Positions 36,782 through 59,990 of a stretch of 64,000 nucleotides of DNA are shown piece after piece; the stretch's first letter is position 1, and each line of letters starts with the position of its first letter. Both the position numbers and the translations under genes were made by a program. The notes under the pieces were generated by a model. The model was not told the origin of the DNA and made no database searches. It saw only the letters and a program-made list of their open reading frames with translations. Location: NCBI RefSeq assembly GCF_000001735.4, contig NC_003070.9:17965971-18029970 (forward strand). The letters are read 5' to 3'. This DNA comes from Arabidopsis thaliana (Eukaryota; Streptophyta; Magnoliopsida; Brassicales; Brassicaceae).

Positions 36782-39700
36782 TCAGTTCTCAGTAACTCGG
36801 AGCATATGCAATGCTCCTTCAAACTTCTCCACAGGCAACACCTTAGTAAAAATGTCTACAGGATTGCACTCACTTGCAATCTTCACCACTTTAACCAGAC
36901 CTGCATTTATGATATCTCGAATGAAATGTAACCTGATATCAATATGCTTTGTCCTTTCGTGATGTACAAAGTTCTTTGCCAAAGCAGTAACACTCTCTGA
37001 ATCACAATTCACCTCCACACTCTCCTGTGAAAAACCAAGTTCTTCAGAAAAACCTCTCAGCCACAAAGCCTCTTTAACAACATCGGTTAATGCCATATAT
37101 TCTGCCTCTGTAGTAGAGATAGCTACCACCTTCTGCTGCCGTGATTTCCAATTAATGGTGTTCCCACCAATAGTGAAAACATAACCTGTGATTGACCTCC
37201 GGTTATCATAATCACCACCATAGTCAGAGTCACAGTAACCTCTTAATAAGAAGTCTTTATTCTTCCTGAAGCAAAGCTTCTTTTTCTTTGTGCCTTTCAT
37301 GTACCTCAAGACCCACTTAGCCGCTTGCCAATGATCCTTTAATGGTCTACTCATGTACGACTGATCACTTCAACTGGATAAGCAAGATCTGGCCTCGTGC
37401 CTATCATTGAATACATGATGCTTCCAACAGTGTTTGAGTAAGGTACAATCTTCATTCTGTCAAATTGTTCCTGATACTCTTTTTCAGTAGCTGCTCTGAG
37501 CTTGAAATGGATTCCTAGTGGTGTTGACACAGGTTTAGCCTGATCCATCTGACTAGATCTCAAAACTTTCTTCACATAACCTTCCTGTGATAGAGTCAAC
37601 ACACCTGCAGCTCTATCTCTAGCAATCTCCATGCCTAAAATTTTCTGAGCTTCACCTAAATCCTTCATCTCAAACTCTTTACCCAGTTACTGTTTTAACT
37701 CCATGATACTTGACTTTTCTTTAGCAGCTATCAACATGTCATCTACGTATAGGAGTAGATACCCATATGACTTATCACTTTGCTGCTTCAAGTATACACA
37801 ACTGTCATAAGCGCTCCTAGTGAAATCAATACTCTTCATAAACTCATCAAATCTCAGATTCCACTGTCTAGGAGATTGCTTTAGACCATATAGGGATCTT
37901 TTCAGTAAACATACCTTTTCAGGGTATTTCTTATCTTCAAAACCTTCAGGTTGAGCCATCAATATCTCTTCATCAAGAAATCCATGTAGGAATGCTGTTT
38001 TAACGTCCATCTGATGCAGCTCCATGTCAAACTGAGCCACCATTGAGAGCATAAACCTGATAGACACATGTTTAACAACTGGTGAGAAGATTTCATTATA
38101 ATCTACACCTTCTTTCTGTGTAAAACCTTTGGCTACCAGCCGAGCTTTAAATCTAGGTGCTTCCACTCCGGGAATACCAGCTTTCCTCGTGAAGACCCAT
38201 CTGCAACCAATGATTTTCGCATTTACTGGTTTATCTACTAAGTCCCACGTGTGGTTTTTTTCCCATGGATGACATTTGTTCTTTCATAGCTCCATTCCAT
38301 AATTCCCAATCTTGATCACTTAATGCTTCTTGATATGTCTTAGGCTCAGAACTACCCCCATCTTCTGTATTGTAGGCAAAACCAACCATATTAGACTCAT
38401 TATATCTTCTGTTCAACTTTACTGTTCTTTTCTCTCTGTCTCTTACTAGTAGGTAGTTACTGAGATCCACTTCTTCGGTAGAATTATCACTGCTGCTTCC
38501 TTCTTCTTCATGAGTTTCTGTCTGCACTTGATTCTGTTCATTAACAGTCTGTTCTTCAGTAACTCCACCTTGCTCAACGCTCTCTTGTTCTGTCATACTT
38601 TGATCTGTGATATTAGATATCAGCTGATTAGAACCTTCTCCTATGTTCTCCATGACTTCTTCATAAGAACTGTTCTGAGAATCAGTTTTAATGTCTTTGT
38701 ACATCACTTCCTCTATGAATATCACGTTTCCACTAATGACACACTTCTTTTCTTCAAGTAGCCAAACTTTATATCCTTTAACACCCTCAGGATAGCTCGT
38801 GAATATTCCCTTCTTTGCTCTAGGATTCAACTTCCCTTGATCTGCGTGTACATAAGCCAAACAACCAAACCTTCTCAATGAACTCATATCCGGTAAAGCT
38901 CCTGTTCATCTTTCTTCTGGCAGCTCAAAGTTCGTTGCAGTATAGGGAGATCGATTTATCAAATACACTGCTGTAGCAGCAGCTTCTGCCCAAAATCTCT
39001 TTTCCATACCACTTTCACTTAACATGCTGCGAACTTTATCCATTATAGTTCGATTGAGTCTCTCAGCGACACCGTTCTGTTGAGGTGTGTAAGCAACAGT
39101 CTTGTGCCTTACAATGCCTTCCTCTTTACAAAACTTCTCAAAGTAATGGTTACAGTACTCTAAGCCATTATCAGTTCTGAGTTTCTTAACCTTCTTATCA
39201 GATTGATTTTCCACCATTTTCTTCCATTCAACAAATTTCTCAAAAGCTTCATCTTTCTTCTTAAGAAAATATATCCACACTTTCCTGGAATAGTCATCAA
39301 TGAAGGAGATGAAGTATTGACAATTTCCCAAAGATGCTGGATTATGAGGAGATCCCCATAAATCTGAATGGATATAAGCTAGCTTCTCCTTTGTAATATG
39401 CTGAGCAGATGGGAAACTGACTCTATGATTTTTCCCATAAATGCAGTCTTCACAAAACCTCAACTCATGAATCACTTCCCTGTTTAAACAACCCTTCTTC
39501 ACTAATATCTCCATTCCCTTCTGACTCATATGACCAAGTCTGTTGTGCCATAACACAGTTTCATCTTTGGATTTCTCAGAGACATTTGATTCAGCTATCT
39601 CAGCTTCTCTAAGAAGTATATACAACGTTTCTCTTTTCTGTCCTTTAAGAACAGTAGAGCATCCTTTAACCACCTTGAGAATACCATCTTGAGACTTGAA

Positions 39701-40890
39701 CCAGCATCCTTTGTCTTCTAAGGTTCCTAAAGAAATTAGGTTCCTAGACATTGTTGGCATGTATCTCACTTATGTTAAAGTAATCTGTGTCCCATCAGAG
39801 TTCTTGATTCTTATGTTTCAATTCCTTTTACCTGAGACAAAGAATCATTTCCCATTTTAATATAACCAGATTTCACTTCTCTAAAATCTGAAAGTCAATC
39901 TCTCCTTGGTGTCATGTGGAATGAACAGCCTGTATCTAGAACCCATTCGTCTGCAGTATTCCCTGAAACAAAAAGATTCTCTTCTTCTGCCATTAGAACC
40001 ATTGCTGGATCATATTCAGCTTTAGCTATACTCGCTTCTCCTTTATCTGAACTTGATCCTGATCCTTTATCTTTGTTTCTTTCAAGCCATTTGAAACACT
40101 GTTTCTTAAAGTGTCCCTCCTTACCACATATCCAGCATACTCGCTTACCATCTCGAGACTTAGATCTTGATCTCCCTTTACCCTTCTTCCCTTGGTTATT
40201 GTTGGAAGATCCTTCTTGTCTTCCTCTAGCAAAATTCCCTTCTGATACAGATCGATTACTCTGTGACAACTCTCTTTCTTTGTCTCGAGCTGCAACCATC
40301 ACATCATCTAACCTCAACTTTTCTCGGCTATTACTATACTTCATGGTTTCAACTAAACCATCATATCTTGAAGGCAACGAACTTAGCAATAGAATTGCTT
40401 GAACCTCATCAGTCACCTCAATCTGCAAATGATTCAAATCAGCCACAATCTTTAAGAAATCATCAATATTCTCATCGATTTTCTTGTTTTCTTGCATCTT
40501 AAAAGTATAGAAACTTAGCTGAGTAAAGACTCTATGAGGTAGAGATCGAATCATGAACAATCGATCTAGAGTTCCCCAAGCTTCTGCTGCAGTTTGACAT
40601 AGCTCGATCTTTCTTAAGACCTTATCTGCAACATTAAGGAAGATCACATTCTTTGCTTTATCACATCGCTCAAGCCTTGCTGCATCATCTGCGTCTCGTT
40701 TCTTCCTTTTCTCCGGATCTTCTTCTTCTTCTGCAGTGAGCGGCAGAGACGATGTTCCGATGACAACATCCTTAAGTCCAATGACGCTTAGATATGCCAT
40801 AATCCTTGTCTTCCACAAGGAGAAATCTCCTGATCCATCAAAGATCGCGATCGGAGTTCCTACCATCTTAGATTCGCACTCGCTCAACAA
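36782..40890 (-). pseudogene. Broken gag-pol of old copia element
   Basis: Separate frames on the minus strand. 39895-40890 is gag with a CCHC knuckle (CWICGKEGHFKKQC) and protease DTG (VLDTGCSFHM), ending at TGA where a Trp is expected after TPRRD. 38906-39769 is integrase (IHSDLWG, RTDNGLEY, TPQQNGVAERLNRT), ending at TGA again at an expected Trp. 38231-38887 is the linker; 37687-38166 RT with YVDDML; 37351-37668 and 36782-37354 RT tail and RNase H (DSDYGGD, KHIDIRLHFIRD). At least two nonsense and several frameshift lesions are needed to explain the breaks, so it cannot move on its own. Confidence 0.9.
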
Positions 40891-40911
40891 CCGTGAGCTC
40901 TGATACCAATT

Positions 40912-41395
40912 TGTAAAGATCTAACTTCACTTCAATCTCACAGACACACGAATCAACTTCAGCACTAAGAATCGAATTGATCAGAACTGAAAGAAAGTAA
41001 AAGAAAAGCTGAACACAGAGAATTTAACGAGTTCACGTTCCAAACCGGAACGCTACGTCTCGCCGGAGAAACCTCTCCGGAAATCCACTAGAACTTGGGA
41101 ACTTAGTCTCTGTTACAATGCTTTCAAGCTTTCTCTCACTACACTCCTCTCTCTCTTTGATCTCAACAAACTCTTATCACGATCTAACGAATTACAGAGA
41201 AGAAGAAGAAGATATAGTTACAGAGCTCATGCGAAAAGACCAAAACGCCCTCAAGCTTGTTATGACTTTAGTCAGCTCGCCTCACGTGTTTCTCACGTGC
41301 TTCCCTTGAATCACAACAGACTTCGAACCCTCTCTTTCACCGATAGTTTCTCCCACACTTAGACCCGAACACTAAAATCTGAGTCACTTCTTACA
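40912..41395 (-). repeat. 5' LTR of old copia element
   Basis: 484 bp, TG...CA ends, adjacent to the initiator-tRNA primer-binding site at 40897-40908. Confidence 0.93.
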
Positions 41396-45314: not shown

Positions 45315-47191
45315 TCATTTTTTTCGTGGAGGTTCGGCTTCACTCTCTATCCTAAACATCTCCTGCAATAAGGACACGCAAAGGTTGATTACGATGCTTA
45401 AACAAAACAACTTATAAACTTATGCAAAATCGTGTCATTTTTTTACCTTTCTTTTGACAGCAAGAATCTGGCTTTTGTTTTCTTTCTCTTCATGGACACA
45501 TTGACCGCACCAGTCTGAGAATTCCGGTTCATAAGTTTGCATCTCTCTAAACAAAGAGCTGCAATGGAAAAGCAGAAAAAAAATATGATTCAACTGTGAT
45601 CTGAAATCTTGAGGCAAGCTTCAAAGTTTCTTACTTCTGGCACCAAAGAATCATATTGGCCCGACGACCAGATGCTGTGGCTCTAGCACCATGGACGTGG
45701 CAGCCACGGTGAAGTATAGCTTGACCCGGTATATGGCAGTAATCAAAATATTCCTGCGTAAGTGAGAAATAGTTGGTTCCTTTATTACTTGAACCCTTTT
45801 GCCATTTACTGAATATAGGAATGTAACAGTACAAAGGAAGCTACTCAAAAGGACTCAAATACCTCTGGCTTTGGATCTATATCCATATGTTTATTGCATC
45901 GTGCGCCTGCGAAAAGTATTTCTCCTCCCTCACCTTGTTTACTCAAACAAACATTCAATGTTATGTCTGAATCTTCCACATGAAAGCCTGCAGATTTAAA
46001 AGATCACTGCTTAATCTTATACTAAACCAGATTAATGTTTTGCTATTAAAGAATTCACTCTGGTTTTTCTCTAGGTATCACAATTCATGTTTGCACTTCA
46101 GGAAAGTAATATCACAAGACTCACCTACGTCAGCATCCCTATCTTCACCATTTTCAATAAAAAATCCATAGTGAGAGTCAAACATTGTTCCACACACTTC
46201 AGGAAAGAATACTGCAAAACAACAGAGTTAAGTTTCGCTGTATTTTCTTAAAATAAGCTTTAACCAATAAAAGTCTTTCGAATGCATTTAAGTAAAATAT
46301 ATGTCTTGCCTTTGCAAATAGGAAAGATAAAATCATCCATGAGTTGCTTAAGCATAATATCCAGGCCAAAGTCGTCAAGTACAACACCGTATTTACTCGT
46401 GTTGTCTGGTCTCCTGATCGTGAAGTTTGTCTCATTAGCCCACTTTCTGAAATTCTCTACCTGGTTAATCAAACAGCAGAAAATGAACAAAAGTAAACCA
46501 AAGAGGTAAGAGCACGGCAGATAATAAGTGGCAAGATGATGGGTTATTGTTACCTCTAATAGCAATTTCTCAGAGAAGTCAGGCTGAAACATTTTAAAGA
46601 CAAAAACACCAGGAAACGGTTCAGAAATGATACGTCTGAAGCTTTCCTCTGTGTTTTCGCTGATCGCCTTGCGGAACGAGGGAAGCAAAAACAATTTGGG
46701 ATCAAGTTTATACAACCCCTTGAAACGTGGCTGCAAGAAAAGGAAACATTGCATAAAGAAAGTCTAAGAAAGCAAAGACGAGCAAAGGCTCCTCACCTGA
46801 TAATTGGATATTATCTCTTGCCTATAGGTCTTGCGCCGTTTAGCCTGGAACATTATATACACATGAACTATTCTGAGAAACTGTGGGTTTAAACATCAGA
46901 TTCTTATGTGTTCACAAGAAAAAAAGATAAAGACAATTCTCTGATTCGTATCAGTTTGGTGAATTTCGTAATTTCAAGTATCACTATCGCAAGAACTTGA
47001 GAAGCAAGTCAATTTCACAGATATGTTGATAGGGCCAAAAAAAAAACAGAATTAGGGTAACAAAAAAAACGAAAGAAAAATCAGAAGTTGAAAGAGCCAG
47101 TACTTGGGAACATTCTTCGCGGGAAATGTACTTCCGCAAAGTGTCTGACATGAATTTGGCCTTCTCTTCTCTCTGCGCCGTGAGCATTGCC
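45315..47191 (-). pseudogene. 2OG-Fe(II) oxygenase (ICU11/CP2-like), 5' end lost to copia insertion
   Basis: Exons 47104-47191 (truncated), 46797-46844, 46554-46730, 46310-46460, 46125-46211, 45863-45987, 45635-45753, 45447-45558 and 45315-45362 all keep frame. The TG of a copia LTR follows directly at 47192, replacing codons 1-68 present in the paralog at 57.6 kb. An ATG at 47187 could still start a 316-residue product. The jelly-roll iron site reads FHVEDSD where the paralog has YHLDDSE, so the HxD aspartate is Glu here; the distal HVHGAR histidine and RANMIL arginine region remain. Exon 4 ends in a GC donor. Family members ICU11 and CP2 are Polycomb-associated dioxygenases. Promoter is separated by over 5 kb, so I call it a 5'-truncated gene; it may yet be transcribed. 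Confidence 0.8.
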
Positions 47192-47631
47192 TGTTGAAAG
47201 TTAAACTTGATTTTGAATCAAGTTTAATTATTGGATCAATTATCCAATAATTAATTATGGTCAAATCCAAGTTCTAGAGTTTTCTCTAGAAATATCATCA
47301 TTTCCACCTCCTTAAAAGATTCTAGAAATTTTCTAGAATCATCTTCCACCTCCTTAAACATAAAAATCTAGATACTCTAATAGAATAATCTAGATAATTT
47401 GAATAATGTAATCTAGATCTTATGTAAGAACTCTCTAGACTTAGGATTAAAATATTTTAGATATTTTGTAGTTTGGAGGCTATAAATACTTCCTCCCCCT
47501 CTCAAATGTTGCAATGTTGTGAAGTTGTATTCAAGTTTAAAGCAAAGTAATAAAAGTTCTATTTCCTAAAAAACTCTCTCAAAACACTTAAACACTTTCT
47601 CCATTACCTCTAAAAGAATTTTACTCTAACA
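47192..47631 (+). repeat. 5' LTR of young copia element
   Basis: 440 bp, TG...CA; contains a TATA-like GGCTATAAATACTTCC near 47489 as probable promoter. Differs from 51708-52147 at three sites. Confidence 0.95.
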
Positions 47632-47634
47632 AAG

Positions 47635-47646
47635 TGGTATCAGAGC
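47635..47646 (+). promoter_or_regulatory. tRNA-Met primer-binding site
   Basis: TGGTATCAGAGC three bases after the LTR, complementary to the initiator tRNA-Met 3' region; repeated at 52151-52162 after the second LTR. Confidence 0.9.
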
Positions 47647-47661
47647 TTGAAGATCCTAAAG

Positions 47662-50600
47662 ATGGCGAGTAACAATGTTCCCTTCCAAGTCCCGGTGCTC
47701 ACAAAGAGCAACTATGATAATTGGAGTCTACGAATGAAGGCTATCCTAGGAGCACATGACGTGTGGGAGATAGTCGAGAAAGGTTTCATTGAACCGGAGA
47801 ATGAAGGTAGTCTTTCTCAAACTCAAAAAGATGGTTTGAGAGACTCAAGAAAGAGAGACAAGAAAGCTCTCTGTCTAATCTATCAAGGATTAGATGAAGA
47901 TACGTTCGAGAAGGTCGTTGAAGCTACGTCGGCGAAAGAAGCATGGGAGAAGCTTCGAACCTCTTACAAAGGTGCCGATCAAGTCAAGAAAGTACGTCTT
48001 CAAACTCTAAGAGGAGAATTTGAAGCACTACAAATGAAAGAAGGTGAACTTGTCTCCGATTACTTCTCAAGAGTGTTGACGGTTACTAATAACCTTAAAA
48101 GAAATGGAGAGAAGCTAGATGATGTGAGAATCATGGAGAAAGTTCTTAGATCATTGGATCTAAAATTTGAGCATATTGTCACCGTCATTGAAGAAACAAA
48201 AGATTTAGAAGCTATGACAATAGAGCAACTTCTTGGGTCATTACAAGCTTATGAAGAAAAGAAGAAGAAGAAAGAAGATATCATCGAACAAGTCCTCAAT
48301 ATGCAAATTACAAAAGAAGAAAACGGCCAAAGTTACCAAAGAAGAGGTGGTGGTCAAGTACGAGGACGAGGTCGTGGTGGATATGGAAATGGACGTGGTT
48401 GGAGGCCACATGAAGACAACACAAACCAAAGAGGTGAAAACTCATCAAGAGGTCGTGGGAAAGGACACCCAAAATCAAGATACGATAAATCAAGTGTCAA
48501 ATGCTACAATTGTGGGAAGTTTGGACATTATGCTTCTGAATGTAAAGCTCCTAGCAACAAAAAATTTGAGGAGAAGGCCAACTACGTTGAAGAAAAAATT
48601 CAAGAAGAAGACATGTTATTAATGGCTAGCTACAAGAAAGATGAACAAGAAGAGAATCATAAGTGGTACCTCGATAGTGGTGCAAGTAATCACATGTGCG
48701 GGAGAAAAAGTATGTTCGCGGAGCTTGATGAATCGGTGAGAGGAAATGTGGCTTTAGGAGATGAATCGAAGATGGAGGTAAAAGGTAAAGGAAACATTCT
48801 CATTCGATTGAAGAATGGAGATCATCAATTTATTTCCAACGTTTACTATATTCCGAGCATGAAGACAAACATCTTGAGCCTTGGACAACTCTTAGAGAAA
48901 GGTTATGATATTAGATTAAAAGATAATAACCTTTCAATAAGAGACCAAGAAAGCAATCTCATTACCAAGGTGCCAATGTCGAAAAATAGAATGTTTGTCC
49001 TCAACATTCGAAATGACATTGCACAATGTCTTAAGATGTGTTACAAAGAGGAGTCTTGGCTATGGCATCTTCGATTCGGACATCTAAATTTTGGAGGATT
49101 GGAGTTGCTTTCAAGGAAGGAAATGGTGAGAGGGCTACCTTGTATAAATCATCCAAATCAAGTGTGTGAAGGATGTCTACTTGGAAAGCAATTCAAAATG
49201 AGCTTTCCAAAGGAGTCAAGTTCAAGAGCACAAAAATCGTTGGAGCTAATACATACCGATGTGTGTGGTCCAATCAAGCCGAAATCACTTGGTAAAAGTA
49301 ATTACTTCCTTCTCTTTATTGATGATTTTTCAAGAAAAACATGGGTATATTTTTTGAAAGAAAAATCCGAGGTGTTCGAAATTTTCAAAAAGTTTAAAGC
49401 CCATGTTGAGAAGGAGAGTGGTCTTGTGATCAAAACCATGAGATCCGACCGTGGAGGAGAATTTACATCCAAGGAGTTTCTTAAGTATTGTGAAGACAAC
49501 GGCATTCGAAGACAATTAACGGTGCCAAGATCCCCTCAACAAAATGGTGTAGCGGAAAGAAAGAATAGAACAATTCTTGAGATGGCAAGGAGCATGCTCA
49601 AAAGTAAGAGACTACCAAAAGAGTTGTGGGCGGAAGCGGTCGCGTGTGCGGTTTATCTATTAAATCGATCTCCAACAAAAAGTGTCTCCGGAAAAACACC
49701 ACAAGAAGCTTGGAGCGGAAGAAAGTCCGGTGTTTCTCATTTAAGAGTCTTTGGAAGTATTGCTCATGCTCATGTACCGGATGAGAAGCGGAGCAAACTA
49801 GATGACAAAAGTGAGAAGTATATCTTCATTGGTTATGATAACAACTCCAAAGGCTACAAGCTCTATAATCCCGATACGAAGAAGACAATTATTAGTCGAA
49901 ATATAGTGTTCGATGAAGAAGGAGAATGGGATTGGAACTCAAATGAAGAAGATTATAACTTCTTTCCACATTTTGAAGAAGATGAGCCGGAGCCAACAAG
50001 AGAGGAGCCACCAAGTGAAGAGCCTACTACACCACCAACTTCACCAACAAGTTCTCAAATAGAAGAAAGTTCGAGTGAAAGGACTCCGCGTTTTAGAAGT
50101 ATACAAGAGCTCTATGAGGTAACCGAAAATCAAGAAAACCTTACCTTATTTTGTTTATTTGCGGAGTGCGAACCCATGGATTTCCAAGAAGCCATTGAAA
50201 AGAAGACTTGGAGAAATGCCATGGATGAAGAGATCAAATCAATACAAAAGAATGACACATGGGAGTTAACTTCACTTCCAAATGGACACAAGACAATTGG
50301 CGTGAAGTGGGTGTATAAAGCAAAGAAAAACTCTAAAGGAGAAGTGGAAAGATACAAAGCAAGATTGGTTGCAAAAGGTTATATTCAAAGAGCCGGAATT
50401 GACTATGACGAGGTATTTGCTCCCGTTGCTCGTCTAGAAACGGTTAGACTAATCATCTCACTAGCGGCTCAAAACAAGTGGAAGATACATCAAATGGATG
50501 TCAAGTCGGCCTTCTTAAATGGAGATCTTGAAGAAGAAGTTTACATTGAGCAACCACAAGGCTACATAGTCAAAGGTGAAGAAGACAAAGTCTTGAGGCT

Positions 50601-51720
50601 AAAAAAGGCGCTTTATGGATTAAAACAAGCCCCAAGAGCTTGGAATACTCGAATTGACAAGTATTTCAAGGAGAAAGATTTCATCAAGTGTCCATATGAG
50701 CATGCACTCTATATCAAAATTCAAAAAGAAGATATATTGATCGCATGCTTATATGTAGATGATTTGATATTCACGGGTAACAATCCAAGCATGTTCGAAG
50801 AATTCAAGAAAGAGATGACAAAGGAGTTCGAGATGACGGACATTGGATTGATGTCTTACTATCTCGGAATTGAAGTAAAACAAGAAGACAATGGAATATT
50901 CATAACTCAAGAAGGCTATGCTAAGGAGGTACTTAAGAAGTTCAAGATGGATGACTCAAATCCCGTTTGTACACCAATGGAATGCGGAATCAAACTATCA
51001 AAGAAAGAAGAAGGGGAAGGAGTGGATCCAACAACCTTTAAGAGCTTGGTTGGAAGCTTGAGATACTTAACATGCACAAGGCCCGATATTTTATATGCGG
51101 TCGGAGTTGTTAGTCGTTACATGGAGCATCCAACAACAACTCATTTCAAAGCGGCAAAAAGGATTCTTCGCTATATCAAAGGTACCGTAAACTTTGGCTT
51201 ACATTATTCAACTACTAGTGATTACAAGCTTGTTGGATATAGCGATAGCGATTGGGGTGGAGACGTAGATGACCGAAAGAGTACAAGTGGTTTTGTGTTT
51301 TACATTGGAGACACGGCTTTCACATGGATGTCGAAGAAACAACCAATTGTCGTTCTATCCACTTGTGAAGCGGAGTATGTAGCGGCTACGTCATGTGTAT
51401 GCCATGCTATTTGGTTAAGAAACCTCTTGAAGGAGTTAAGCTTACCACAAGAGGAACCAACGAAGATCTTTGTGGATAACAAGTCGGCAATAGCTTTGGC
51501 GAAGAACCCGGTCTTCCATGATCGAAGTAAACACATTGACACACGCTATCACTACATTAGAGAGTGTGTTAGCAAGAAGGACGTGCAATTGGAGTATGTG
51601 AAGACACATGATCAAGTAGCCGATATTTTTACCAAGCCTCTCAAGCGTGAAGACTTTATCAAGATGAGGAGTTTGCTTGGAGTAGCAAAATCAAGTTTAA
51701 GAGGGGGTGTTGAATGTTAA
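47662..51720 (+). CDS. Ty1/copia Gag-Pol polyprotein, intact
   Basis: Encodes the retrotransposon capsid and enzymes in a single 1352-residue frame from ATG 47662 (MASNNVPFQV), without stops. Domains in order: gag; CCHC knuckle CYNCGKFGHYASEC near residue 281; aspartic protease YLDSGASNHM near 336; integrase zinc region WHLRFGHLN near 467 and core D,D-35-E residues in HTDVCGP (~530), RSDRGGEF (~594) and PQQNGVAERKNRT (~625). Reverse transcriptase follows with YVDDLIF near 1031, then RNase H with SDSDWGGD (~1193), DNKSAIALAKNP (~1272) and KHIDTRYHYIRE. The frame runs 13 bases into the 3' LTR. All catalytic motifs are present, so the element may be autonomous unless silenced. Confidence 0.96.
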   Translation: MASNNVPFQVPVLTKSNYDNWSLRMKAILGAHDVWEIVEKGFIEPENEGSLSQTQKDGLRDSRKRDKKALCLIYQGLDEDTFEKVVEATSAKEAWEKLRTSYKGADQVKKVRLQTLRGEFEALQMKEGELVSDYFSRVLTVTNNLKRNGEKLDDVRIMEKVLRSLDLKFEHIVTVIEETKDLEAMTIEQLLGSLQAYEEKKKKKEDIIEQVLNMQITKEENGQSYQRRGGGQVRGRGRGGYGNGRGWRPHEDNTNQRGENSSRGRGKGHPKSRYDKSSVKCYNCGKFGHYASECKAPSNKKFEEKANYVEEKIQEEDMLLMASYKKDEQEENHKWYLDSGASNHMCGRKSMFAELDESVRGNVALGDESKMEVKGKGNILIRLKNGDHQFISNVYYIPSMKTNILSLGQLLEKGYDIRLKDNNLSIRDQESNLITKVPMSKNRMFVLNIRNDIAQCLKMCYKEESWLWHLRFGHLNFGGLELLSRKEMVRGLPCINHPNQVCEGCLLGKQFKMSFPKESSSRAQKSLELIHTDVCGPIKPKSLGKSNYFLLFIDDFSRKTWVYFLKEKSEVFEIFKKFKAHVEKESGLVIKTMRSDRGGEFTSKEFLKYCEDNGIRRQLTVPRSPQQNGVAERKNRTILEMARSMLKSKRLPKELWAEAVACAVYLLNRSPTKSVSGKTPQEAWSGRKSGVSHLRVFGSIAHAHVPDEKRSKLDDKSEKYIFIGYDNNSKGYKLYNPDTKKTIISRNIVFDEEGEWDWNSNEEDYNFFPHFEEDEPEPTREEPPSEEPTTPPTSPTSSQIEESSSERTPRFRSIQELYEVTENQENLTLFCLFAECEPMDFQEAIEKKTWRNAMDEEIKSIQKNDTWELTSLPNGHKTIGVKWVYKAKKNSKGEVERYKARLVAKGYIQRAGIDYDEVFAPVARLETVRLIISLAAQNKWKIHQMDVKSAFLNGDLEEEVYIEQPQGYIVKGEEDKVLRLKKALYGLKQAPRAWNTRIDKYFKEKDFIKCPYEHALYIKIQKEDILIACLYVDDLIFTGNNPSMFEEFKKEMTKEFEMTDIGLMSYYLGIEVKQEDNGIFITQEGYAKEVLKKFKMDDSNPVCTPMECGIKLSKKEEGEGVDPTTFKSLVGSLRYLTCTRPDILYAVGVVSRYMEHPTTTHFKAAKRILRYIKGTVNFGLHYSTTSDYKLVGYSDSDWGGDVDDRKSTSGFVFYIGDTAFTWMSKKQPIVVLSTCEAEYVAATSCVCHAIWLRNLLKELSLPQEEPTKIFVDNKSAIALAKNPVFHDRSKHIDTRYHYIRECVSKKDVQLEYVKTHDQVADIFTKPLKREDFIKMRSLLGVAKSSLRGGVEC

Positions 51721-52147
51721 ACTTGATTTTGAATCAAGTTTAATTATTAGATCAATTATCCAATAATTAATTATGGCCAAATCCAAGTTCTAGAGTTTTC
51801 TCTAGAAATATCATCATTTCCACCTCCTTAAAAGATTCTAGAAATTTTCTAGAATCATCTTCCACCTCCTTAAACATAAAAATCTAGATACTCTAATAGA
51901 ATAATCTAGATAATTTGAATAATGTAATCTAGATCTTATGTAAGAACTCTCTAGACTTAGGATTAAAATATTTTAGATATTTTGTAGTTTGGAGGCTATA
52001 AATACTTCCTCCCCCTCTCAAATGTTGCAATGTTGTGAAGTTGTATTCAAGTTTAAAGCAAAGTAATAAAAGTTCTATTTCCTAAAAAACTCTCTCAAAA
52101 CACTTAAACACTTTCTCCATTACCTCTAAAAGAATTTTACTCTAACA
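51708..52147 (+). repeat. Second (middle) LTR of young copia element
   Basis: 440 bp direct repeat of 47192-47631; followed by a new primer-binding site and gag start rather than by host DNA. Confidence 0.95.
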
Positions 52148-52177
52148 AAGTGGTATCAGAGCTTGAAGATCCTAAAG

Positions 52178-52471
52178 ATGGCGAGTAACAATGTTCCCTT
52201 CCAAGTCCCGGTGCTCACAAAGAGCAACTATGATAATTGGAGTCTACGAATGAAGGCTATCCTAGGAGCACATGACGTGTGGGAGATAGTCGAGAAAGGT
52301 TTCATTGAACCGGAGAATGAAGGTAGTCTTTCTCAAACTCAAAAAGATGGTTTGAGAGACTCAAGAAAGAGAGACAAGAAAGCTCTCTGTCTAATCTATC
52401 AAGGATTAGATGAAGATACGTTCGAGAAGGTCGTTGAAGCTACGTCGGCGAAAGATGGTTTGGGATTCTGA
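52178..52471 (+). pseudogene. Duplicated gag 5' fragment of copia element
   Basis: Repeats the first ~93 codons of the gag frame (MASNNVPFQV onward) after the middle LTR. It then runs into unrelated sequence (DGLGF, stop at 52469-52471), giving a 97-codon frame. Homology ends at about 52455. It is a truncated second retrotransposon unit, though the frame is probably carried as a small gene model in annotations. Confidence 0.9.
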
Positions 52472-52959: not shown

Positions 52960-53714
52960 TAAGCTAAGAGGGCCTCTAAGTTTCATTCATCATTAAATAT
53001 TAAATTTTATTGTTTTATTAACTTAAGAAACTTCTAAAATCCTCCCTCACGAAGATGCTCTTATATTTGGGAAAAAAAACAAAAAAAATTTTTTTGCAAA
53101 AATATTAGCTTAGATTTCAAGTACTAATTTTTTGCAAAATCTCAGTAACTAATTTTCTTGAAGATCACCCAATTAAGATTTTAGATTGTTGAATTTAAAG
53201 TTGGTTTAACGGTTTTTGATTTTCAATTTTCACTCATCCAAGCCTCGTTAGGAGTTGAGAGTTTACGAGGAGCTTACCGCTTCGCAGCGGCAAACAGAAG
53301 GAGATGAGGATGTTGCAGTCAAACACTATCACACAATTGGAGATTGACGCCATAATGCTTGAAGTAAGTTACATTTAACGTAAATGTTCACTCTCATATT
53401 TGTTTATAAAGTAAAAATTTAGTATGCATGCTTTGTTCTCATCTTTATAGTATCTTATAGTAAATACCCTTCGTTGTGATCTTAAGAGTATACTTAAACA
53501 AACACGTACTTTATAGGACTCTCCAAGTTTGAGTATATAATATGTAAATGGCCAAAACACGTTGGTGAAATTATGTATATTCGTAATTAAATACACAAAT
53601 TGGATTGTGATTTTCACAAATTGATTTAGTGGCACTTTGCCAAACCATGCAAATAAAATTTGGTCTTCCGCTCTGGCCCATAATTAACCTTTTTACATTT
53701 TTCTAGGAGACTTA

Positions 53715-53970
53715 GAGCATTTCCATCAATAGTCTCTCACATGGTTTCTCTTCCACTAAAAAATATAAAATAATAATAAAGTAGGAGAGAGAATAAGAAA
53801 AGTTTCTCTGCAGAGAAACCATGAGATACTCTTCTTACCACATGTCATATTTTAACAGGTTAAATAATTATTTTCAGAATAATTATTTAAATAAATAATA
53901 ATATTATATGATAATGATTAAAAAACAATATATTGAGATACTCCTACCAATTCTACCGATGAAGATGGCC
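53715..53970. mobile_element. PIF/Harbinger-type MITE
   Basis: 256 bp beginning GAGCATTTCCATCAATAG and ending TACCGATGAAGATGGCC, imperfect inverted ends, flanked by TTA on both sides (53712-53714 and 53971-53973). Ends and length resemble the element at 12938-13190. Confidence 0.65.
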
Positions 53971-54197
53971 TTATGTTTTTGTTTTTCACTGAGTAAGATA
54001 AAAATTGTCAATACACGCGATTTATCACCGCGTTTCAACCACGCGTAATATTGCCGTGCAATTTTGGCCCATTTTATCAGCCCAAAACATGTTACGAACT
54101 GAATATTTAAATTAATTTTTAAACGTTTTCGATCATTTCAAATATTTCATCTCTAATTTAGTTTCAATTAAAATTTTGAAATATATTTGTTGTTTCT

Positions 54198-54924
54198 AAA
54201 TACAGGTTATTGGTCGATCTTCTTCTTGAGAAAGCTCTAGGAAGAAAATCCTCACAGACCAAGAGTTTTTCAAAGAGAGAAGAAGAAACCTGCTGAGGTC
54301 TCTTGTCGCCGATTAGGGAACATCTCCGTACGCTCTTATTTGGATCCCTGGGCGTGCATTTTATTCTCAGCTGCCAGAATGACTCTTAGTAAGAGCATTT
54401 CCTTGGGTGACCTGATCTTGATCTGCATCTTGTTCGTTCTTGCTGTGGCTGTCATCATCTTCTGCCTTTGGAAGCGTAAATCTCCTCCATCCTTGCCTGC
54501 TCAGGTGTCTGCATATGAGGTGGCCATGACGCCTCTTGACTCACGATCTCCCTGGTCTACTCCTGCTCAGCCGGACTTCTCTCCAACAGCCTCGAGTTAT
54601 TACTCGGTAGGAATACGCACCCCATCACCTTATACTGGGTGCTTCACGCCAGCTCGAATCAACTTAACCTAGTCGATTTTTCTAGAGGTATCTATAGGTA
54701 CATAGTAAGAAAGTAGTAGAGAATTTAGAATTTAGAGTTAAGAAAGCATTAGAGAATTCAGAAATTAGAATCTGGTAACTATTTCTCGTTCAGTATTTAA
54801 TTATGTTGTACCAAAACCCCAACTTATGTTTTGTATTTTGTTATGTTCATTCTAAGTTGTGGAAACTTATCATGAAAGTTTAATGTGCAAAGTTTGGCAA
54901 AAAAAAAAAATACAGGTTATTGGT
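54198..54924 (+). mobile_element. Retroposed gene copy with poly(A) and target duplication
   Basis: Direct repeats AAATACAGGTTATTGGT at 54198-54214 and 54908-54924 flank a segment ending in 12 A residues (54899-54910), exactly before the right repeat. Inside lies an intronless leader, a 97-codon frame (54379-54672) and a ~220-bp 3' UTR. This is the layout of LINE-mediated retroposition of an mRNA. Confidence 0.85.
54379..54672 (+). CDS. Small single-pass membrane protein, retrogene
   Basis: A 97-residue protein from ATG 54379. Residues ~9-31 form one strongly hydrophobic helix (GDLILICILFVLAVAVIIFC) followed by the basic stop-transfer KRK, then a Ser/Pro/Thr-rich tail (PLDSRSPWSTPAQPDFSPTA). 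No enzyme motif or known domain is visible; I do not recognise the family. The start is the first ATG in the transcript-like segment; the in-frame codons upstream lack an ATG. It sits inside a poly(A)-tailed, repeat-flanked segment without introns, so it should have an intron-containing or older parent elsewhere. An open frame of full length suggests either recent insertion or function. Confidence 0.7.
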   Translation: MTLSKSISLGDLILICILFVLAVAVIIFCLWKRKSPPSLPAQVSAYEVAMTPLDSRSPWSTPAQPDFSPTASSYYSVGIRTPSPYTGCFTPARINLT

Positions 54925-55595
54925 TTTCGCTATCGCTAGTACCATCTCTTTTAAATATTTAAACCAGAATAATTTTAATCTCTACGACACTCATGGAGAT
55001 GCAGTTCCAATGAGTCAGAGTTGATGGTGAAAATTTACATGTATTAGATGATCACCCGCGCTATGCCGCGAGTTTTTTTGTTTTTTCTTTTGTTTTTTTT
55101 TATTTTTTTTATTTGATATTATAATTTTATAAATGTAATTTTTAAGTATTAAATCATCTATTCATCCAATGAGTAACTACTTTTAATGTCACAGTTTTTT
55201 CTAATAATATTCTCAACAATGCATTACTTACAATTTTCAAACAATCATTTGTCAGTTTTGAATTATAGACACGTCGTAAACTAATTTTGTAGATGTTAAT
55301 GTTAGGATTATAGAAACCTCGCGAATTTAATGATGAAACTCCCACTGTGATATATTATATAAATAATTAAAAATTGTAAAAGAATAATCTACTTAAACTA
55401 TTAGCTTATCCACTATACTATTTCTTTTAACAGAACGAACCGATTTAGTATCAAGTTTGTAGCATCAAGCTTCAAGAATCCTAAATTGCATTGAGGATCG
55501 TTTCTCAATGCCTTTAAAAACAGAGTAATAATCATGAACAAACAAAAAGACCTAAGAAAAACAGAGCAAACAGATTTAGTATCAAGTTGGTAGCA
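54925..55595. other. AT-rich spacer with GC-rich hairpin
   Basis: No gene. Around 55047-55070 ACCCGCGCTATGCCGCG is a GC-rich near-palindrome in an AT-rich surround, followed by T-rich sequence. It resembles the short hairpins found at ends of plant Helitrons, but no matching end was located. Confidence 0.4.
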
Positions 55596-56330
55596 TCAAG
55601 CTTTACGTTTTTCTAAGAGGAAAGACGTTCGACTTTTTTGAGTAGACCTTCGTTCTCGACTTCTTTGAGTAGACCTTCGTATTCTTTCAGGAATAGACAC
55701 TCCATTCAACAGGTGTAAAAGATCCCCGGTAATAATCCCATGCCTAGTGGCTAGCCAATCCACACACGCTTCTTCTTTTGTTTCAGCCCAAACAACGATT
55801 TTCAAGGTAGGAGAAACCATTGATCCAGCAGGTCCAAGCTCGGTAGTGTAAGCTCTACTCATTCCATGTCGACGTTGTAGAACATACTAGAGAGGGTATT
55901 TGTTCGTTTTCTGGTAAAGATCAACATTATAGTTCAGAGAATCAGAAATGTAAATTAGAAAATGTCGAATGTTACCAGACTTCTCCAACGAGGTCATCAA
56001 TTCACCATAGTCACCATCGGATGTTGTAAGTAACATCGTGCCTTTTCTACAAGTCTCAGCCCATGCCTTAATCTGGGTTATGATCTCCTCATCAGCTACT
56101 TGTTTCTCTTCTGGCTTTCCCATAGAGTTTATTACAACTCCCTCATTCGTAAGCTTTTGCCAAAGGCTTTTGATAATCTTTTAGGAATGTTATGAGATCT
56201 AAAATGGGGGCCACAAAATTTTCAGTAAACTCCCTGGGAGGCTTCAGGCCTTTGATGTATATCACTGAATAGAGCTCCACTGCTTTATCATACGCAGAAG
56301 CCGCCATCTCTTGCTCAGTTGCTCTCTCCC
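55596..56330 (-). pseudogene. Broken minus-strand gene, possibly NYN-like nuclease domain
   Basis: Three protein-like minus-strand stretches lie in series. About 56150-56313 begins MAASAYDKAVELYSVIYIKG and ends at a stop. 55887-56123 begins MGKPEEKQVADEEI with a core KGTMLLTTSDGDYGELMTSL. 55596-55862 begins MSRAYTTELGPAGS. The middle stretch resembles the D-rich strand of NYN/limkain-type domains (a WA..., then LL.SGDxDF pattern), a weak match made by eye. Stops and frame changes separate the pieces; a multi-exon gene cannot be excluded. I cannot assign a function. Confidence 0.4.
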
Positions 56331-57619: not shown

Positions 57620-59990
57620 TCATGCTTTGCCTCCAGTCGCAATTCGAATCATCCCCTGCAATAAGGACCCCCACAGGTTCATAACCATACTCAAACCAAA
57701 CATCTTATAAACTTGTGCATCATCATGTCTTCTTTTTTTAATAACCTTTCTTTTGGCATCAAGACTCTGGCTTTCCTTTTCTTTCTTTTCATGGGCGCAT
57801 TCATTGCACCACTCTGGGAAATCTTTCTCATATTTTTCCATCTCTCTAAACAAAGAGCTGCAATGGAAAAGAAGAGTAAAATGTGATTCAATTGTCATCT
57901 GAAATCCTGAGGCAAGCTTCAAAAATTGCTTACTTTCTGCAACAAAGAATCATATTGGCCCGAGAACAAGATGGTGTGTTGGCTCTGGGACCATGGCGGT
58001 GGCGGCCACGATGAAGTATAGCTTGACCCGGTGAATGACAGTAATGAAAAACTTCCTGCTTCAGTGAGAAATAGTTGTTTCCTTCATTAACATTTTGCCA
58101 TATACGAAATATTGGCATGTAATAGGACAAAAAATCTCATCAAAAGGTCTCACATACCTCTGGCTTTACGTCTGTTCGCTTATGTCTCAAGCATCGTGTG
58201 CCTATGAAAGATATTTCCCCTCCCTCAAATTGTTTCCTCACACAAACATTCAATGTTATTTCCGAATCATCTAAATGATAGCCTGCAGATTTAAAAGATA
58301 ATTAATGCACTAGTCACTGAGAATAATAAAAAGAAGCATCCACTGCCCAAACAAAGATAGTCACTAGTGGTCTGCCCGGACGTTTTTCCCAGACATATAT
58401 AAGAACTTTAATCCATCATCCATCATGTAACTATTCTGTTTCCTCTCTTCCTAAAGATGGAGACATTCATACTTTTTCCCAACTAACAGTAACATAGACA
58501 CACTTCAAAAAAAGACCATTCAATCACCAGGACTTTGATCAAAATATTTATGTTTGCTACTAAAGAATTTACTTTGGTTTTCTCTAAGCAGCTTAAGTAT
58601 CACAGAATATTCTTGCAATCCAGGAAAGATTGTACGGTCCTATGAGAATTTTTGCAGAATCGTTGCAGCAAAGTAAAAGCAGAAAATCAAAGGGACTCAC
58701 CTAATGGAGGATCCCTATCTTCACCATTTTCAATATAATATCCATGGTGAGAGTCAAACATTGCTCCACACTCTTCAGGGAAGAATACTGCAAGACAACA
58801 GAGTGAGTTTAGTGTTATTCAATAGGCTTAACCAATAAAAGTCTTTCTAAGTAAAAAATATGCCTTGCCTTTGCAAATAGGAAAGAGAAATTCCTCCATG
58901 AGTTGCTGAAGCATGATATCCAGGCCAAAGTCGACAAACGCAACACCGTATTTACTCATGTGGTACGGTCTCCTGATTGGGAAATTTGTCTCATGAACCC
59001 ACTTTCCGATATTTTCTACCTGATGAATCAAACAGCAGCAAATGAATTAAACAAAGAGGTATTAGGATAAGTGGCAAGATGATGGGTTACCTCTACTATC
59101 AATTTCTGAATGAAGTCAGGCTGAAACATTTGAAAGACAAGAACACCAGGAAACGGTTCAGAAATGATACGTCTGAAGCTTTCCTTTGTGTTTTCGCTGA
59201 TCGCCTTTCGGAAAGAGGGAAGCAGAAACAATTCGGGATCAAAATTATACAACTCCCTAGAAAGTGGCTGCAGAAAAGGAAACATTTCAAACTTTGGCAT
59301 GAAGAAATTTAAGAAAAACAAAACAAAACACGAGCAAAGGCATCTCATCTCACCTGATAATTAGATTTTATCTTCTGCCAATAGTTCTTGCACCATTTAG
59401 CCTGTAACATTATAAAAACGTGAAACTATTCTGAGAACCTAACCAGATTCTACGTGTTCACAAGAAAAAGCTAAAGACCATTCTATGATCGTATCAGAGT
59501 TTCTGCAATTTCAAGAAACTAACAAGAATCACTATCCCAAGAACTTTAGAAGCAATTCCAATTTCACAGATATGTTCACAAGACGAAGCTAAAGATCGTT
59601 CCCTAATTCGTGTCAATTTGATGACAGAAAGAAACTAACATGAATCACATCCGAATTCGATTAAACAAAATTGGGATCAAAACGAATTGAAAGAGCAATT
59701 ACTTTGGAACATTCGTCGCGGGAAATGTACTTGCGCAAAATGTCAGACATGAATTTGGCCTTCTCTTCTCTAGTCGCCGTGAGCATTTCCGGCGGCAAGT
59801 ACTTCTCTAGCGAGCTTAACATGGCAGAGCTATATTCCAGTTCCAGATCTCCGTAGTTATCAGAAATGTGCTCCATGTTAGGAAACGGACTCAGCCTCGC
59901 GATAGCCTTCTCCTCTGTAGTCGCCGCTGCAGTAGTCACCGGTGGTTGAGAATCTCCACCTGCGACTGTTTCGTCACCGTCCAACGCCAT
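57620..59990 (-). CDS. 2OG-Fe(II) oxygenase (ICU11/CP2-like), full length
   Basis: Predicted 2-oxoglutarate- and Fe(II)-dependent dioxygenase; the family includes ICU11 and CUPULIFORMIS2, which work with Polycomb repression. Exons 59703-59990, 59354-59401, 59091-59267, 58869-59019, 58701-58787, 58158-58282, 57934-58055 and 57620-57857 give 411 residues. The iron site is visible: HLD in GYHLDDSE (HxD) and the distal His in LHRGRHRHGPRAN, with RANMIL giving the 2OG-binding Arg candidate. Exon 4 ends with a GC donor (AAAG|GCAAGG). The 3' end is uncertain: the paralog splices out an intron where this model reads through, so a shorter tail (RK joined to GMIRIATGGKA) is possible. Two GGCCCA (site II) motifs lie at 60174-60192. 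Confidence 0.88.

Follow-up and report, generated by a model that had tools for sequence, protein, structure and literature searches.

We identified an insert flanked by two copies of AAATACAGGTTATTGGT that is very probably an L1-type retrocopy of an mRNA whose donor has been lost or has diverged, that is, an orphan retrocopy. It lies in the window, the 64,000-nucleotide stretch of the Col-0-like Arabidopsis thaliana genome that was analysed (C1:17965971-18029970), and the genome searched comprises 119,662,809 bases on 7 contigs. An exact target-site duplication (TSD), a run of 12 A and a transcript-like segment together form the signature of target-primed reverse transcription of the L1 type, and the retroposition reading is therefore well supported. 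A first, sequence-only reading of this DNA had proposed a LINE-mediated origin, and this proposal gains strong support from the exact TSD, the poly(A), the transcript anatomy, the change in GC content at the left border and the lack of long terminal repeats (LTRs) or inverted repeats. On this reading, the insert is a clean L1-type retrocopy, of a kind that is already known, and unusual in its perfect scars and its missing parent. The features are collected in Table 1.

Table 1. Features of the insert and of the host DNA upstream of it (positions in the window).
Feature	Position	Strand	Evidence
Three CGCG cores, host DNA upstream of the insert	54016..54045	+	script
TATA-like site, host DNA, candidate captured promoter	54182..54189	+	script
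Left TSD, AAATACAGGTTATTGGT	54198..54214	+	direct reading, repeat search, genome search
5' leader (164 nt) of the copied mRNA, without ATG, GC 0.46 overall	54215..54378	+	
97-codon frame with stop	54379..54672	+	ORF list, script
3' UTR (226 nt) of the copied mRNA, GC 0.29	54673..54898	+	
Decayed 31-nt tandem duplication within the 3' UTR, 27/31 identical	54706..54769	+	
Poly(A), 12 A, the final 3 common to the right TSD	54899..54910	+	direct reading, scan
Right TSD, same as left	54908..54924	+	direct reading, repeat search, genome search

The 17-bp duplication noticed in the sequence-only reading is exact in both copies, which match at 17/17 bases by direct reading and by script. They are the only exact copies of AAATACAGGTTATTGGT detected in the 119.7 Mb genome; with one mismatch allowed, four genomic places are found (the two exact copies here and two elsewhere with one mismatch), and the reversed-pattern control for this search gave one place. 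When 53900-55300 was shuffled 1,000 times with dinucleotides preserved, no shuffle gave a direct repeat of 17 nt with starts at least 100 nt apart; the longest reached 16 nt, once. Within the same 53900-55300 interval, a repeat search with a minimum of 12 nt returned two families of direct repeats, the TSD and the tandem duplication of the 3' UTR. Neither LTRs nor terminal inverted repeats of at least 12 nt bracket the insert, and for want of the latter a DNA transposon was rejected. The A-run, described earlier as lying right against the right repeat, is present and slightly overlaps it: its last three A (54908-54910) are common to the run and the right TSD, as target priming predicts, which gives a tail of 9 to 12 A according to how the shared A are allotted. 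At the left border, GC content steps from 0.18 (54155-54214, 60 nt) to 0.38 in the first 60 nt of the leader, and it climbs to 0.60 within the insert. The right border has no such step because the 3' UTR is AT-rich and the flank likewise.

Additionally, we scanned the window and 65 loci from this genome (206,104 bases; mostly ~3 kb, some overlapping the window), on both strands, for runs of at least nine A followed by a repeat, 14 nt or longer, of upstream sequence 150-7000 nt away, matches with more than 70% of one base having been discarded beforehand, uncounted. The scan returned the insert at 54198-54924, in the window and in seven overlapping loci, and one 14-nt match consisting of A and T only (L040). 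Could the locus instead be a small native gene, never retroposed, whose repeat and A-run arose by coincidence or by local repair duplication? Such a gene would fit the failure to locate a parent in the genome, and a TATA-like site stands 33 nt before the first base of the insert, at ordinary-promoter spacing; this site is weak evidence, since such a site precedes 140 of the 1,894 AT-rich positions sampled at a distance of 22-40 nt. However, the repeat was not reproduced by shuffling, has no further exact match genome-wide, and coincides with both the poly(A) end and the left composition step, and we hold a native origin to be very improbable.

Retroposition by L1-type machinery thus remains our preferred reading. 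TSDs of L1-type insertions are roughly 7-20 bp long, and the 17 bp observed here fall inside this range; the 3' poly(A) at the right duplication and the lack of LTRs or terminal inverted repeats likewise agree with the type. L1-type targets are TT/AAAA-like, and the target here, CT/AAAT, differs from this at 2/6 bases. We propose that a polyadenylated mRNA of ~684 nt would have been reverse-copied into the site by L1-type LINE proteins acting in trans. The lower strand would have been nicked at TTTCT^AAATAC, and the freed 3' end in TTT would have served as primer on the poly(A) tail; the 17-bp duplication would stem from a second cut, 17 nt further along. The donor locus would since have been lost, or have diverged past recognition, while the retrocopy retains an uninterrupted frame of 97 codons that would encode a small membrane protein with one pass. 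Any expression would come from the upstream host DNA, with its TATA-like site and CGCG cluster.

The internal 97-codon frame, reported earlier as intact, is so, and it opens at the first ATG of the insert (context CAGAATGA). Retroposition of a non-coding transcript, or of one whose frame arose by chance, with the 97 codons not translated into a protein, is an improbable variant of our reading. In its favour, a 97-codon frame from any ATG of the strand was matched in 21/2,000 shuffles, the predicted protein has no Pfam family above the curated cut-off, and a PDB search at E up to 1 gave it no relative. Against it, 97 codons from the first ATG were matched in 6/2,000 shuffles only, and the true frame's codon score was attained by 0/1,000; this score is slightly negative (-0.022) and its reference is just four frames from the window, the three other readings tried scoring -0.157 to -0.275, all below the true frame. 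Moreover, 8 of the 11 prolines in the tail of the protein (residues 34-97, 64 residues) follow S or T, giving eight S/T-P motifs, a pattern found in 26/20,000 shuffles. The protein also has a single strong hydrophobic helix (approximately residues 12-30, mean Kyte-Doolittle value 3.59), with KRK after it at 32-34. Judging from these features of the sequence, the product would be a one-pass membrane protein with a cytosolic tail accessible to proline-directed kinases. The Pfam search gave three matches, all under the curated cut-off: the best was Adeno_E3_14_5 (E 0.067, 14.1 bits vs a cut-off of 28.7) and the remaining two were transmembrane segments, which makes it probable that the first is a match of this type too. 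In the 3' UTR, the tandem repeat, at 4 differences in 31, may be older than the insertion; these numbers are too small for a test.

No parent gene was found in the assembly, at the DNA or the protein level. With E up to 0.001 for the whole insert, and up to 10 both for the leader with the first 82 nt of the coding sequence and for the 3' UTR, each search of the assembly returned only the query itself. A protein search of the genome returned the locus itself and one match on contig C5 with three stops (E 0.108; 0.079 for the tail alone). We rejected the C5 match as a decayed parent: identity is 29%, it was absent from tblastn at E 10 in the genome-sized setting, and at the DNA level just 21- and 27-nt matches link it to the insert (E 0.92 and 0.26), as by chance. 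The DNA search used for the insert recovered dispersed repeats from the flanking DNA down to 63-70% identity, and a parent at 70% identity or more should therefore have surfaced, within a search of one assembly, possibly missing sequence, in which only the best candidates were scored. A search for a paralogous empty site gave none: the immediate flanks, 53974-54214 and approximately 54908-55028, had no other match among the matches listed. The insert matched no tRNA or Rfam family (ARAGORN being run with the bacterial code), and a SINE origin is argued against by its single copy.

The sequence-only reading had called the locus a retrogene and had regarded the absence of a parent as grounds for abandoning that view. 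With protein, leader and 3' UTR all lacking a parent within this assembly, there is no gene against which intron loss could be shown, and the strict sense of the word, a copy processed from a known gene with introns, falls; retroposition itself stands, because parents can be lost. The failure to find the donor in the reference assembly makes the insert an orphan retrocopy. Alternatively, the copied mRNA could have been foreign to the genome, from another species or a virus, in line with the lack of genomic relatives for every piece tried and with a viral family, Adeno_E3_14_5, being the best of the three sub-threshold Pfam matches. We consider this extremely improbable: that match is probably of the transmembrane type, like the other two, and among 38 pattern matches in viral contigs tblastn confirmed no relative, in a search that reaches close relatives only. 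Loss of the donor is the simpler explanation, and we retain it.

How old the orphan retrocopy is can be bounded only loosely. Mutation rates of 7e-9 and 4e-9 changes per site per year, applied to 46 unchanged sites, give 95% upper bounds of 9.3 My and 16.3 My, respectively. The description of the insert as recent-looking is thus weak, as the 46 unchanged sites permit an age of up to ~9 My. With this upper bound, an insertion specific to A. thaliana is not proven.

L1-like retrocopies have been described in Arabidopsis, and the mechanism is thus already known (Zhu et al., 2016; PMC4838847). Like these, our insert has poly(A) and a TSD and lacks flanking LTRs. The reference-genome set treated in that text has parents of >95% identity, and three of its ten copies carry L1-like marks, one of these with a TSD. 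In this one, R_AT4G31900.1, the 15-bp TSD contains one mismatch and the 22-bp poly(A) contains two changes, whereas the marks here are perfect and no parent was found. Readable preservation of both marks had been called uncommon beforehand, which agrees with the one in ten young reference retrocopies for which the text describes poly(A) and a near-perfect TSD (PMC4838847). Orphan retrogenes and retrogene replacement are known in animals, as in a human set (Ciomborowska 2013, as cited in PMC5803294) and in amphioxus SYCP1 (PMC5803294). Amphioxus SYCP1 resembles our case in that a single-exon copy is present and its parent is missing from the genome; its multi-exon ancestor is known from relatives, whereas our search covered the A. 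thaliana genome alone. Genes specific to the Brassicaceae lineage, which are enriched in abiotic stress response (PMC3049755), are comparable in that the insert gene is small and single-copy. According to the same source, eight lineage-specific genes fit retrotransposition, judged by alignments with other genes of A. thaliana that span intron-exon boundaries, an approach that a parentless copy, unlike those eight, escapes. As they are described, the methods of both studies require a relative in the genome, and copies that outlive their parent are therefore missed (PMC4838847; PMC3049755). A search that starts from the scars, poly(A) and TSD around an open reading frame, would reveal parentless retrocopies and could give an origin to some of the lineage-specific genes whose origin is unknown.

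The retrocopy may have captured a promoter. The scars set the exact boundary between the copied RNA and the host DNA that may hold the promoter, which makes promoter capture directly testable. If expressed, the gene would have its transcription start near the left repeat. The upstream CGCG cores lie at 54016, 54029 and 54042, against a density of 0.55 per kb in the window; one is CGCGTT, given as the rapid stress response element, and two match the CAMTA consensus taken from the same source (PMC10417383). Having been noticed post hoc, this cluster is put forward purely as a hypothetical stress-response input. By gene order, the 97-codon gene is probably AT1G48720. Other candidates for that name are three minus-strand frames at 55.6-56.3 kb of 54 to 88 aa. 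These frames (55596-56307; 88, 78 and 54 aa) are candidate pieces of one gene and had no Pfam match at E 0.001. At1g48720 is listed at rank 47 in the top 50 stress-response predictions from 11,193 unannotated genes, with an estimated precision of 0.578 (PMC2213690); this ranking is the output of a classifier in an expression study, not an assay. Retrogene replacement with promoter capture is a tentative and rather unlikely extension of our reading: the retrocopy would be the sole survivor of a gene whose intron-bearing parent vanished in the A. thaliana lineage, and would have come to respond to stress because its landing site was just downstream of a TATA and a CAMTA-type (CGCGTT) cluster already in place, not far from the heat-activated ONSEN. 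ONSEN sequence on the same strand as the insert stops at ~52455, 1.7 kb upstream of the retrocopy, and read-through from it is therefore a rival source of any heat response.

The ONSEN-type copia element itself spans 47192-52455, contains one open 1368-aa frame and fits AT1G48710. A 439-nt LTR query from it (47192-47630) gave eight pairs that are full-length and at element spacing, of which C1 carries four, C3 three and C5 one. It also matched single copies, partial copies and, at one place on C1, a third LTR. The end repeat is 748 nt long (47192-47939 vs 51708-52455, with 3 mismatches), and on the right it extends past the LTR into sequence of the primer site and early gag, resembling a truncated second copy placed in tandem. 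OGFOD2-like (2OG oxygenase) genes at 46260-46763 and 59028-59360 bracket both ONSEN and the retrocopy. These two fit AT1G48700 and AT1G48740, which are given as homologues in PMC6161759. Further upstream, a second copia-type element, present as several separate frames, occupies 36782-40920 on the minus strand, with integrase domains in one scanned frame. Closer to the insert, dispersed repeats lie on either side. That on the left (53708-53973) has its longest other copies at C2:5606130 (94%), C1:4326431 (87%) and C3:5328551 (76%), and the stretch on the right (55029-55420) has many dispersed genomic matches, the best other one being 85% over 210 nt at C5:13877322.
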